This document shows, one piece after another, positions 2,266 through 13,551 of a stretch of 41,832 bases of DNA (position 1 is its first letter; the number at the start of each line of letters is the position of its first letter). The DNA is from a virus, in IMG/VR virus record IMGVR_UViG_3300032284_001110, positions 1 through 41,832 of that record; one strand, written 5' to 3'. The position numbers and the translations under genes were made by a program. Under the pieces are notes generated by a model, which saw nothing but the letters and a program-made list of their open reading frames with translations, did not search any database and was not told the DNA's origin.

Positions 2266-3603
2266 ATGCTTTCTCGTGAGCACATGCACGCCTACCAGGA
2301 AAGATGCGTTGCGTTCATCAAGGATAAACGCCGTTGCGGGCTCTTCCTCGACATGGGACTCGGGAAGAGCGTCTCAACATTGACTGCGGCCCTCGATCTG
2401 CTGGAAGAGTTCTCGGTCAGGCGCGTTCTGGTGATAGCCCCGCTACGTGTCGCCAATTCGGTTTGGGCGCAGGAGATCAAGAAGTGGAGGCACCTGTCTG
2501 GACTGCGCGTGTCGGTCTGCACGGGCAATGAGAAACAGAGACTGACCGCGTTGCATAAAGACGCGGACGTGTTCGTCATCAATCGTGAAAACATCATGTG
2601 GCTCGTCGAGAAGAAGCGGACCAAGTGGCCGTTTGATATGGTGGTGATTGACGAGTCGAGCAGTTTCAAAAACAGCAGCACCAAACGCTTCAAGGCGATC
2701 CGCAAGATCCTGCCCGGCACTGAGTACATGGTGTTGCTGACTGGCACGCCGTCACCCAACAGCCTCCTCGACATCTGGTCGCAGATGTACATGATTGACT
2801 TCGGCAAGGCGCTGGGGCGCACGATGACGGGCTACAAGCAAAGGTTCTTTGAACAGGACTACATGGGCTACAATTGGACGCTGAAAGATGGGGCGGAGAA
2901 GGCGATCCATTCCTTGATTGAGCCAAGCGTCATTCACATGAGCGCCGAAGATTACCTTGATGTGCCAAACAGGATCGACCTGACAGAGCGTGTCGTACTG
3001 GAGCCGTCTGTCATGGCGCAATACAAGAAGTTCGAAAAGACGTTGTTGTTGGAGCTGGAGAACGGCGACGAGGTCGAGGCCATGTCTGCGGCAGTTCTGG
3101 CTAACAAGCTCCTGCAAACGGCGAATGGCAGCGCCTACACGGATAAGAACGGCGCATGGACGCCGATCCACAGCGAGAAGCTCGACGCACTGGCTGAGAT
3201 CATCGAGGACAATCCGAACGAAAACATTCTGGTGGCGTACAATTATCGCTTCGATCTTGAACGGTTACAGGAAAAGTTCAAGACGGCCGTTTTACTCGAC
3301 AAGAAACAGGACACGATTGACCGTTGGAACAATGGCCAGATTAAACTGATGCTGGCTCACCCTGCATCCGCCGGCCACGGCCTGAACCTCCAAAATGGTG
3401 GCTCAATGATCGTGTGGTTTGGGCTTACGTGGTCGCTCGAATACTATCAACAATTCAACGCTCGCCTGCACAGGCAAGGTCAACTCAAACCTGTCCGCGT
3501 CGTGCATATCGTGTCGGCCGACACGATCGACGAGCGCGTCCTGCAAGTGCTGACAATGAAAGATGCCACGCAGAAGAACCTGCTGGCCGCCCTGAAGCCT
3601 TGA
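2266..3603 (+). CDS. SNF2-type DEAD/DEAH helicase
   Basis: Superfamily 2 ATPase of 445 residues, short for an SNF2 protein but with both RecA-like lobes. Visible motifs are Walker A DMGLGKS (29-35), APLRV (Ia, about 58), Walker B VIDESSSF (127-134), LLTGTP (motif III, about 157), SAGHGLNLQ (motif V) and QFNARLHRQGQ (motif VI, 396-406). Phage members of this family act as DNA translocases or branch-migration helicases in replication and recombination. The ATG follows the HNH stop without a gap. Its stop TGA lies inside the -35 box of the next promoter. Confidence 0.94.
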   Translation: MLSREHMHAYQERCVAFIKDKRRCGLFLDMGLGKSVSTLTAALDLLEEFSVRRVLVIAPLRVANSVWAQEIKKWRHLSGLRVSVCTGNEKQRLTALHKDADVFVINRENIMWLVEKKRTKWPFDMVVIDESSSFKNSSTKRFKAIRKILPGTEYMVLLTGTPSPNSLLDIWSQMYMIDFGKALGRTMTGYKQRFFEQDYMGYNWTLKDGAEKAIHSLIEPSVIHMSAEDYLDVPNRIDLTERVVLEPSVMAQYKKFEKTLLLELENGDEVEAMSAAVLANKLLQTANGSAYTDKNGAWTPIHSEKLDALAEIIEDNPNENILVAYNYRFDLERLQEKFKTAVLLDKKQDTIDRWNNGQIKLMLAHPASAGHGLNLQNGGSMIVWFGLTWSLEYYQQFNARLHRQGQLKPVRVVHIVSADTIDERVLQVLTMKDATQKNLLAALKP

Positions 3604-6028: not shown

Positions 6029-6231
6029 CCCAGAACCCCATCAACCTCATCAAGACCGAGAACGACATCTGGCACGTTGAATATTTCGGCAAGATCGTCG
6101 GGTGGATCCAGAAGGTCCAACGCAAGGTTGGCCACGGGCAGGCATATCATTGCCTGACGGCCGGCGGCGACATCACCTACACCGACAGCCTAAGAGCCGC
6201 GAAGGATTGGATTGTGGGGCAGGTGAAATGA
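6025..6231 (+). CDS. Hypothetical protein
   Basis: 68 residues, with a beta-rich pattern (DIWHVEYFGKIVGWIQKVQ) and a C-terminal helix. No recognised domain. ATGA overlaps on both sides place it in the coupled chain leading into the cytosine methyltransferase. Confidence 0.7.
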   Translation: MTQNPINLIKTENDIWHVEYFGKIVGWIQKVQRKVGHGQAYHCLTAGGDITYTDSLRAAKDWIVGQVK

Positions 6232-7574
6232 CAGCCTTCTACAACGAGATTGACGGGGCTTGTGTGGCTGTCCTGAAAGAACAGATCGCACATAACGTCA
6301 TAGCGCCTGGTATTGTAGAAAGCCGTTCGATCAAGGATATTAACCCAGATGACATCAAACACTACACACAAGCCCACTTCTTTGCAGGCGGCGGTTTCTG
6401 GTCAGTCGCAGCCCGCCTCGCCGGATGGCCTGACGACAGACCTCTTTGGTCCGCGTCCTGTCCGTGCCAGCCGTTCTCGCAAGCAGGCAAAGGGGCCGGA
6501 ACTGCTGATGAACGGCACCTGTGGCCCGACTTATTTCGATTGGTCCGGGCCGTTCGACCTCGAGTCCTCGTTGGGGAACAGGTTAGCGGAGCGGCTGGCT
6601 ATGGTTGGCTCGACGGAGTCCGCGCTGATCTGGCGTCGGAAGGCTACACCTGCTGGGCATACGATATTCCGGCTTGCGCCATCGACGCGCCCCATATTCG
6701 AAACCGGCTCTACTGGTGCGCCGTGGCCGAGCCCGACGTCATCAGTGGGCGGTCCGGAGCCGGACGGATCGACGGGGCGCAAACTAGCGACGCACATGGT
6801 CCGCACGAGGTGGCCGACGCCGAACTGCCCGGCAGGCGGTCGAACGATGACGTTCGAGGAAGCGGTGACGCAGCGCAAGCGGACCGACGGATCGAAGGCG
6901 CAGTTGAATCTGGAAAACGCGATGCTGCATCTGGCGAACTGGTCGACACCCCGAGCCTCGGACGGGGAGAAGGGCGGCCCGAACCAGAGTTTCGGAGCGG
7001 GCGGGACGCCGCTGCCGTCGCAGATGCACCGGGCGACGTGGGCTACTCCGGAAGCAAGCGACGTGCGCAAGCATTCGGAAGTTCCGGCGACCGTGCTTCG
7101 GCGCATAGCCAAAGGGCAGCAGATTGCACTGAACGCATACGTTTCCTTGACCGCGCACATGAACCTAGCGACGTGGCCGACGCCGACGGTTCAGGATTCG
7201 TCGAGGGGCAACGGGACTATTCGGCCGCACGATACGGGAATTCCCTTGGTGCAACGTATGGCGGCAACGGCGGCTTTTTCTGGTCCGACGCCGAATGGAT
7301 CATCTGCCACGATGGAAAAGCGCGGCGCACCAAATCCAGGTTTTGCGATGTGGCTGATGGGGTTTCCAGACCGCTGGGTGGCTGTGACGACCTTGGCACT
7401 ATTACGCCGGAAGAAAAAGAAGCCGTCACAAAAGTCCTAGGCCCCGATCTGCTTGTCGACGCACTCCCAGGCCGTGTTGATCTTTGGCGTATAGCCGGGA
7501 ACGCCATCGTGCCAGTCCTCGCGGCAGAAGTCCTCAAAGCCCTGATGGAAACGCTTGACACCCCGTCAATATGA
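6228..7574 (+). CDS. DNA cytosine-5 methyltransferase
   Basis: 448 residues. FAGGGF (52-57) is motif I. SCPCQPFSQAGKG (77-89) holds the catalytic cysteine (C80). GEQV (116-119) stands for motif VI, which is usually EN-V. RNRLYW (158-163) is motif VIII, and GNAIVPVLAAEVLKAL near the end is motif X. Between VIII and X lies a long, low-order variable region (170-370) with repeated VADA-type motifs where the target-recognition domain should be. Start on an ATGA overlap, with GGGCAGG upstream. A second long open frame covers most of the gene (6349-7440); see that entry. Confidence 0.92.
   Translation: MTAFYNEIDGACVAVLKEQIAHNVIAPGIVESRSIKDINPDDIKHYTQAHFFAGGGFWSVAARLAGWPDDRPLWSASCPCQPFSQAGKGAGTADERHLWPDLFRLVRAVRPRVLVGEQVSGAAGYGWLDGVRADLASEGYTCWAYDIPACAIDAPHIRNRLYWCAVAEPDVISGRSGAGRIDGAQTSDAHGPHEVADAELPGRRSNDDVRGSGDAAQADRRIEGAVESGKRDAASGELVDTPSLGRGEGRPEPEFRSGRDAAAVADAPGDVGYSGSKRRAQAFGSSGDRASAHSQRAADCTERIRFLDRAHEPSDVADADGSGFVEGQRDYSAARYGNSLGATYGGNGGFFWSDAEWIICHDGKARRTKSRFCDVADGVSRPLGGCDDLGTITPEEKEAVTKVLGPDLLVDALPGRVDLWRIAGNAIVPVLAAEVLKALMETLDTPSI
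6349..7440 (+). CDS. Overlapping frame inside the cytosine methyltransferase (WPTP-repeat protein)
   Basis: 363 codons open in the +1 frame relative to the methyltransferase. The translation does not look random. It contains an ordered LxxRLAERLAMVGSTESALIW stretch, KATPAGHTIFRLAPS, then repeated W-(P/S/A)-T-P motifs (WPTPNC, WSTPRA, WATPEA, WPTPTV) and a C-terminal NPGFAMWLMGFPDRW. I recall this architecture, including the WLMG-P-W end, from proteins annotated beside phage cytosine methyltransferases. The DNA behind VADA in one frame reads WPTP in the other. The ribosome-binding site is weak (AAGGA 17 nt upstream). Expression is unproven. Confidence 0.5.
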   Translation: MTSNTTHKPTSLQAAVSGQSQPASPDGLTTDLFGPRPVRASRSRKQAKGPELLMNGTCGPTYFDWSGPFDLESSLGNRLAERLAMVGSTESALIWRRKATPAGHTIFRLAPSTRPIFETGSTGAPWPSPTSSVGGPEPDGSTGRKLATHMVRTRWPTPNCPAGGRTMTFEEAVTQRKRTDGSKAQLNLENAMLHLANWSTPRASDGEKGGPNQSFGAGGTPLPSQMHRATWATPEASDVRKHSEVPATVLRRIAKGQQIALNAYVSLTAHMNLATWPTPTVQDSSRGNGTIRPHDTGIPLVQRMAATAAFSGPTPNGSSATMEKRGAPNPGFAMWLMGFPDRWVAVTTLALLRRKKKKPSQKS

Positions 7575-13005: not shown

Positions 13006-13551
13006 ATGACAATAGCTAGACACCCACCGCACATCATTGACCGAGTTCTACTCCTGCACCGTGAAAGGCTGTCATCATCAGTCATCGGCGCAGACGTCGG
13101 CCTGTCCCGCAACGCCATCATCGGGATCATTCACCGACAAAGGAAAAATGCCGGCATCGCATGGGAGGGGCCACCTGTCATGACCAAGAACGTGCCGCGC
13201 GGGCCTAAAGCGCCGACTGTCGAGCGGCTGCTCGCAAAGAAGCTGCCGCCCAAAAGCACAAGGGGTCGCATTACGGGACTAAACATCGCCTCAGACCGCT
13301 TTGACACGCGCCCCGAGCCGATTGACATTCCGTCGCTGCATGAGTGGAAGCAGCCAGACTACACGCCGGCAGGGCCAGAATCAGCGAAACCCGCCAACAT
13401 CATCGACGTCAAGGAATGTCGAGCCCCAGTCCAAAAACGGGCAGGTGTCCAATTGTTTTGCAACGCAACACGCAAGACTGGCTCATCCTACTGCCCGCAC
13501 CACCACCGCATGTTCAACTTCGAACCTCGTTCATGGAGCAAAGCGTCATGA
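13006..13551 (+). CDS. GcrA-family transcription regulator
   Basis: 181 residues. The N-terminal helix-turn-helix (residues about 10-46) contains SSSVIGADVGLSRNAIIGII-HR, matching the GcrA S-x-x-x-IA-x-LG-x-(S/T)RNAVIGK-x-HR signature. The C-terminus has CRAPV, an FC, and YCPHHHRM (C138, C152, C163, H165-167), the usual zinc-like end of GcrA. The middle (55-130) is Pro-rich and unconserved. In Caulobacter, GcrA binds sigma70 and stimulates promoters with methylated GANTC; a phage copy could steer host RNA polymerase (inferred). AGGA lies 9 nt upstream; the stop overlaps the next start. Confidence 0.85.
   Translation: MTIARHPPHIIDRVLLLHRERLSSSVIGADVGLSRNAIIGIIHRQRKNAGIAWEGPPVMTKNVPRGPKAPTVERLLAKKLPPKSTRGRITGLNIASDRFDTRPEPIDIPSLHEWKQPDYTPAGPESAKPANIIDVKECRAPVQKRAGVQLFCNATRKTGSSYCPHHHRMFNFEPRSWSKAS

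Follow-up and report, generated by a model that had tools for sequence, protein, structure and literature searches.

A Phage C5-Cytosine Methyltransferase Probably Made of Two Chains from Nested Genes, with a Recognition-Like Region in the +1 Frame

Two-Polypeptide C5-Cytosine Methyltransferases

In M.EcoHK31I (YGGCCR), the beta subunit is encoded within the alpha gene, in a different reading frame. According to the published description, the two polypeptides of this enzyme share out the conserved motifs, i.e., I–VIII and X in the large one and IX in the small one, and the recognition domain is predicted to lie in the large subunit (PMC3404938). The same paper describes M.AquI as naturally split after motif VIII, with IX and X in the small subunit (PMC3404938).

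The locus that we describe here belongs to a 41.8 kb IMG/VR virus record (the window, i.e., the whole stretch of DNA analysed) and very probably encodes a C5-cytosine methyltransferase made of two polypeptides from nested genes, the beta-like one (B, with the recognition region) lying inside the alpha-like one (A). Like M.EcoHK31I, as far as its published description goes, the locus has motifs I–VIII and X in A (alignment A6, constraint, and a folded C-terminal helix) and, as in the beta subunit, motif IX in B (HHalign with motif IX of fused enzymes). Unlike in the M.EcoHK31I of that description, the constrained recognition-like region is here in B, and the middle of A is an unconstrained linker. 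Moreover, this is a phage gene, and its layout occurs in phages infecting many different hosts, with B usually unannotated. With M.AquI, the locus shares the division into a catalytic and a small-domain polypeptide, but motif X is here in A and not in the small subunit; it is the split loci of actinophages, such as L204 and L216, that look closer to M.AquI. Single-chain phage enzymes (Mycobacterium phage Rita gp76, L176) resemble this locus by their LPTP-type repeats and their WMMGxPxGW motif IX placed after motif VIII but, on the contrary, carry all motifs in one frame, with a normal codon-position pattern throughout. Our literature searches found nothing that deals directly with an overlapping-frame phage methyltransferase.

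The Locus and Its Two Frames

Besides a GcrA-like gene, the window carries genes for a DNA polymerase, a helicase, and tail and head proteins, and from this gene content it is therefore probably a phage of an alphaproteobacterium. The GcrA cell-cycle-regulator-like gene (13006-13551; PF07750, 8e-8) suggests an alphaproteobacterial host whose cell cycle is controlled by DNA methylation.

The first-pass annotation had pointed to two long overlapping frames in the methyltransferase gene, and they are real. Frame A runs from an ATG at 6228 to a TGA at 7572-7574, and frame B, of 363 codons, from an ATG at 6349 to a TAG at 7438-7440; the offset of 121 nt between the two starts places B in phase +1 (Table 1). 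Frame A matches phrog_363 (4e-59) and frame B phrog_1008 (3e-28). The coupling of two repeat sets at the base level, also proposed there, is present as well: GTGGCCGACGCC reads VADA in frame A and WPTP in frame B, with copies at about 6811-6822 and 7174-7185.

Table 1. Positions of the features of frames A and B in the window.
Feature	Position	Strand	Evidence
Frame A (448 aa): C5-cytosine methyltransferase, the catalytic, alpha-like chain	6228..7574	+	PF00145, phrog_363; Foldseek to M.HhaI 8e-8
Frame B (363 aa, phase +1 of A): putative beta-like chain for specificity	6349..7440	+	phrog_1008; +1 of A in related loci
Putative Shine-Dalgarno AAGGA for B, inside A, 11 nt before the B ATG	6333..6337	+	sequence
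A, motif I-like HFFAGGGFWS	6375..6404	+	conserved in the 99-sequence alignment A6
A, motif IV SCPCQPFS with catalytic Cys	6456..6479	+	SxPCQP invariant in A6
A, motif VIII region APHIRNRLYW	6687..6716	+	A6; A-type codon-position pattern
A, central linker, residues 178-347, open, unconstrained, predicted disordered	6759..7268	+	pLDDT mostly <50, coil; rates; 118/122 open
A, motif X RIAGNAIVP, 3' of the end of B	7488..7514	+	A6; folded C-terminal helix, pLDDT to 95
B, residues 69-111, predicted helix and beta hairpin (SSL..RL...GST...W...TPAG...RLAPS), in the true dual-coding stretch	6553..6681	+	block pLDDT to 93; z 3.4 in each frame
B, W[PSA][TS]P repeats in a region resembling a recognition domain	6706..7299	+	HHalign to actinophage in-frame region E 4.8e-10; B the constrained frame
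B, motif IX-like NPGFAMWLMGFPDRW	7333..7377	+	aligned to RLAPAFSEWMMGWPAGW of fused enzymes; B-type constraint

In frame A, the PF00145 match (1.9e-12) covers residues 75-168, and the PCQP, GEQ, and PHxRxR signatures, for the catalytic motif IV and motifs VI/VIII, are conserved. The AlphaFold model of A, which resembles M.HhaI in the Foldseek comparison, is folded over residues 1-177 and at the motif X helix and leaves residues 178-347 as low-confidence coil. Frame A has no recognition region and motif IX within its own chain: its middle is unconstrained and unstructured, and the WLMG of motif IX is in B. Over residues 1-84 (6228-6479), in the window as in the family, motif I (HFFAGxGxWS) comes only after a stretch resembling motif II/III (YNEID...GxVDxRSIxDV). 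The motif order of A thus looks permuted, which the strand order of the model fits; the HHalign signal for it is weak (probability 15, E 0.0018). The only permutations given as natural in one published list are those in the variable region (PMC5944983).

Frame B Is Open and Conserved in Relatives

The +1 open run of the window reaches 373 codons, against a mean of 190 and a maximum of 367 when the synonymous codons of A are permuted (200 permutations). Taken over 150 distinct homologous loci, +1 runs have a median of 332 out of 398 codons and a minimum of 206, with a median of only 67 in the +2 frame; the simulated +1 median is 166 codons, and the observed run is significantly longer (p <= 0.05) in 130 of the 150 loci. 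In all 178 viral or phage loci that contain the family, including those fetched with the A profile alone, B lies in +1 of A and the overlap exceeds 200 nt; in four of them, all actinophage enzymes, the +1 match is weak and mainly within the N-terminal shadow, so that the firm count is 174. In the 78 distinct loci selected through A, the two frames overlap over a median of 317 codons (minimum 141). The same arrangement is found in 80/80 loci from bacterial genomes, 79 of them with more than 100 codons of overlap. No locus with B lacking an A in this phase was found among the 178 viral or phage and 80 bacterial loci.

Frequent stop codons in B beside an intact A, the pattern that the first-pass annotation had set against the second frame, were not found: B is open in essentially all relatives. 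Several natural disruptions run the other way, the middle of A being broken by stops with B intact (L090, L109/L070, L136, L261). In a pairwise test, B also appears depleted in stops, but since the choice of ORFs partly builds this depletion in, we do not use it as main evidence. These comparisons between relatives support the view of B as a genuine, conserved, and selected reading frame.

A Putative Start Signal for B inside A

The sequences GGAG or AGGA occur at the R-S codons of the RSI motif of A in 58/131 loci, against 20.4 +/- 4.1 expected from the codon usage of each gene and a maximum of 34 over 500 simulations. A start codon lies 13 nt downstream of this position in 88 loci, 57 of which have the site. 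Across relatives, B has a selected, putative Shine-Dalgarno site inside A. The start used in the window is the second common one, an ATG located 25 nt downstream of the RSI-motif site position; its own AAGGA is slightly off the enriched site of the relatives, and its 11-nt spacing is less common.

Constraint Passes from One Frame to the Other

Because codon position 3 of B corresponds to position 1 of A, the two frames leave distinct substitution fingerprints. We compared 19 close pairs (about 74-96% identity), with rates given for A positions 1/2/3. The A-only 5' part (.084/.053/.287), the overlap over motifs I–VIII (.103/.069/.206), and the A-only 3' part (.157/.161/.365) are fastest at A position 3. 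In the middle (.358/.222/.186), position 1 is faster than position 3 in 19/19 pairs, i.e., the pattern is B-like (sign test, p 4e-6); the comparison of the window with its 88%-identical relative L172, one of these pairs, gives 42/28/25 there. The C-terminal overlap gives.149/.084/.148, and a finer scan finds B-type constraint at LNPxxxxWLMG and A-type constraint resuming at motif X. In single-chain relatives, taken as a control, the recognition region has the normal pattern (.159/.130/.314). The constrained frame is hence A over motifs I–VIII and X, and B in the middle, with its WPTP repeats, and at LNPxxxxWLMGxPxxW.

Silent changes complete this picture. Those that are silent in A are conservative in B over the late part of the N-terminal overlap (z 3.4) as well as over the middle (z 2.6), and not conservative in B for A-only DNA (z -0.9) or the first stretch of B (z 0.5); for the first ~40 residues of B, amino-acid constraint was not seen. 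Substitutions that are silent in B, for their part, are not conservative in the middle of A (z 0.95), and in the late N-terminal overlap both frames are conservative (z 3.4 each). Clear two-frame amino-acid constraint spans only about 240 nt, in the N-terminal half, with weaker signals at the C-terminal junction, and the rest of the overlap is therefore a relay. Uniform dual coding is ruled out by the codon-position rates and the silent-change tests. The first-pass annotation had envisaged dual coding over more than 1 kb: the second frame stands as real and selected, but the uniform extent was overstated. It had also taken the VADA repeats as an ordered feature of the methyltransferase; since the residues of the A middle are unconstrained, these repeats are rather the shadow of the WPTP repeats of B. 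The middle of A is nonetheless open in 118/122 loci, against 6 expected if only B mattered, and A must therefore still be read through.

Resemblance of B to a Recognition Region

In actinophage methyltransferases, LPTPxxxD repeats and RLxPxFxEWMMGxPxGWVT, then motif X, stand in frame with motifs I–VIII. Built from 152 sequences, the B profile matches these fused enzymes over their recognition region and motif IX (HHalign E 4.8e-10, a score that the P/T-rich repeats may inflate) and also matches the split beta ORFs in +1 (E 4.4e-13, N-terminal extension included). Retrieval with the recognition region of a fused enzyme gave 80 loci, which simple motif rules sorted into 30 fused and 47 split, with 3 unresolved; beta is in +1 in 38 of the 47 split loci, with an ORF overlap of mostly 180-370 nt. 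In L310 and L339, A is naturally fused in frame to the C-terminal part of B.

By profile comparison, the C-terminal half of B is homologous to a segment of single-chain actinophage enzymes, namely their target-recognition region with motif IX. By this homology to the region between motifs VIII and IX, B would play a role in target recognition, and the earlier suggestion of a second protein that recognizes the target or acts as partner of the enzyme is the best explanation. Modelled on its own by AlphaFold, B gives a poor model (pTM 0.28) apart from residues 69-111 and the WLMG helix, as might be expected, though this is no proof, for a chain that needs a partner. With this model, Foldseek returned chance matches only and did not link B structurally to any recognition domain; a profile search of the PDB with B likewise gave only chance matches, and Pfam gave none.

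A Two-Chain Enzyme and Its Alternatives

In the two-chain model, frame A would give the catalytic subunit, with the SAM-binding and catalytic motifs I–VIII and, beyond a long linker without structure, motif X. Ribosomes would also start at the internal Shine-Dalgarno and ATG to make B, the small-domain subunit, whose N-terminal helix-hairpin piece would be followed by a target-recognition region rich in repeats and by motif IX. Both chains would then assemble into one active enzyme. In such a scheme, the shared DNA would act as a relay, a precise sequence in one protein facing mostly linker in the other. We infer the translation of B, its assembly with A, and its choice of the target.

The same parts exist in one chain in actinophages and natural in-frame A-to-B fusions are known, and both facts would suit a programmed +1 frameshift near motif VIII, producing a single A-to-B chain (I–VIII, recognition, IX) with no independent start of B. 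We consider this unlikely: the product would be devoid of motif X, which is in A, and a frameshift leaves unexplained that B is open and constrained in its amino acids upstream of motif VIII, that its start signal is enriched, and that A is kept open through its middle. B could also be an expressed protein of unrelated function, e.g., a regulator or an anti-defence factor, overlapping the methyltransferase by chance, as the lack of any Pfam or significant PDB match and its low-confidence model would allow. We consider this unlikely too, given that every B found in the viral, phage, and bacterial loci has an A in this phase, that its C-terminal half matches a region which fused enzymes carry in frame, and that A is without a constrained recognition region of its own.

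Long open shadow frames are frequent in GC-rich genes, and part of the N-terminal conservation of B mirrors the motifs of A; B might thus be an untranslated by-product, held open by the composition of A. We give hardly any credit to this reading, since the middle evolves as B and not as A in every pair and both openness and start signal exceed the shuffled controls. A random open shadow frame is ruled out by the permutation runs and the codon-position rates of the middle.

Spread and Annotation of the Layout

The layout is found in phages of Proteobacteria and of Paenibacillus, in Mycobacterium and Gordonia relatives, and in a cyanophage. Such an overlap had been held to be rare outside very small viruses; on the contrary, it is common in the C5 methyltransferases of tailed phages. 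B is unannotated in epsilon15, N15, BcepC6B, and most others, and a few records annotate both frames. Those that do, with beta in +1, are Paenibacillus phage Bloom (BLOOM_56/57), K1ind1 (ORF29/ORF28, "Mte8-like"), and the Xanthomonas phages PhiXhv-5 and PhiXhv-28, where the frames are given as separate or duplicate methyltransferases without explanation. We think it likely that, among the tailed-phage C5 methyltransferases annotated as single proteins, a large share (with epsilon15, N15, and BcepC6B as examples) consist of two chains, the specificity subunit being hidden in +1, constraint being handed between the frames and the family shifting between nested, partly overlapping, and fused forms. 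If so, the part that decides the target is absent from the annotation of many phage methyltransferases, and cloning or specificity prediction from the annotated gene alone would therefore fail. The family would also be a large and deep natural data set on the coexistence of two long overlapping genes, by a route in which the unstructured part of each gene sits under the structured part of the other.

Observations in Related Loci

Several relatives present peculiarities of their own. L006 (EBPR siphovirus 2, gp44) has an in-frame insertion of ~1.1 kb at the motif IV site of A (about 1381-2499); it begins with CFPAGALVLTKRGYVEIQHV and ends with DGIVVHN before CQPFS, and B starts within its 3' end. 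By its sequence, this insertion looks like an intein. In L134, a TAG replaces the glutamine codon of motif IV (SCPC*PFS, about 2741) in an otherwise intact A, which may indicate an amber-recoding phage, an error, or a nonsense mutation. L178 (Gordonia phage GordTnk2, 2288-3158) has motifs I–VIII in one ORF; a second ORF, which overlaps the first in +1, holds the recognition repeats and motifs IX and X. The annotation of L178 mentions only a short methyltransferase and a hypothetical protein. Finally, L111 carries a degenerate second copy of the N-terminal part of A (2491-3186), directly 5' of the intact gene.
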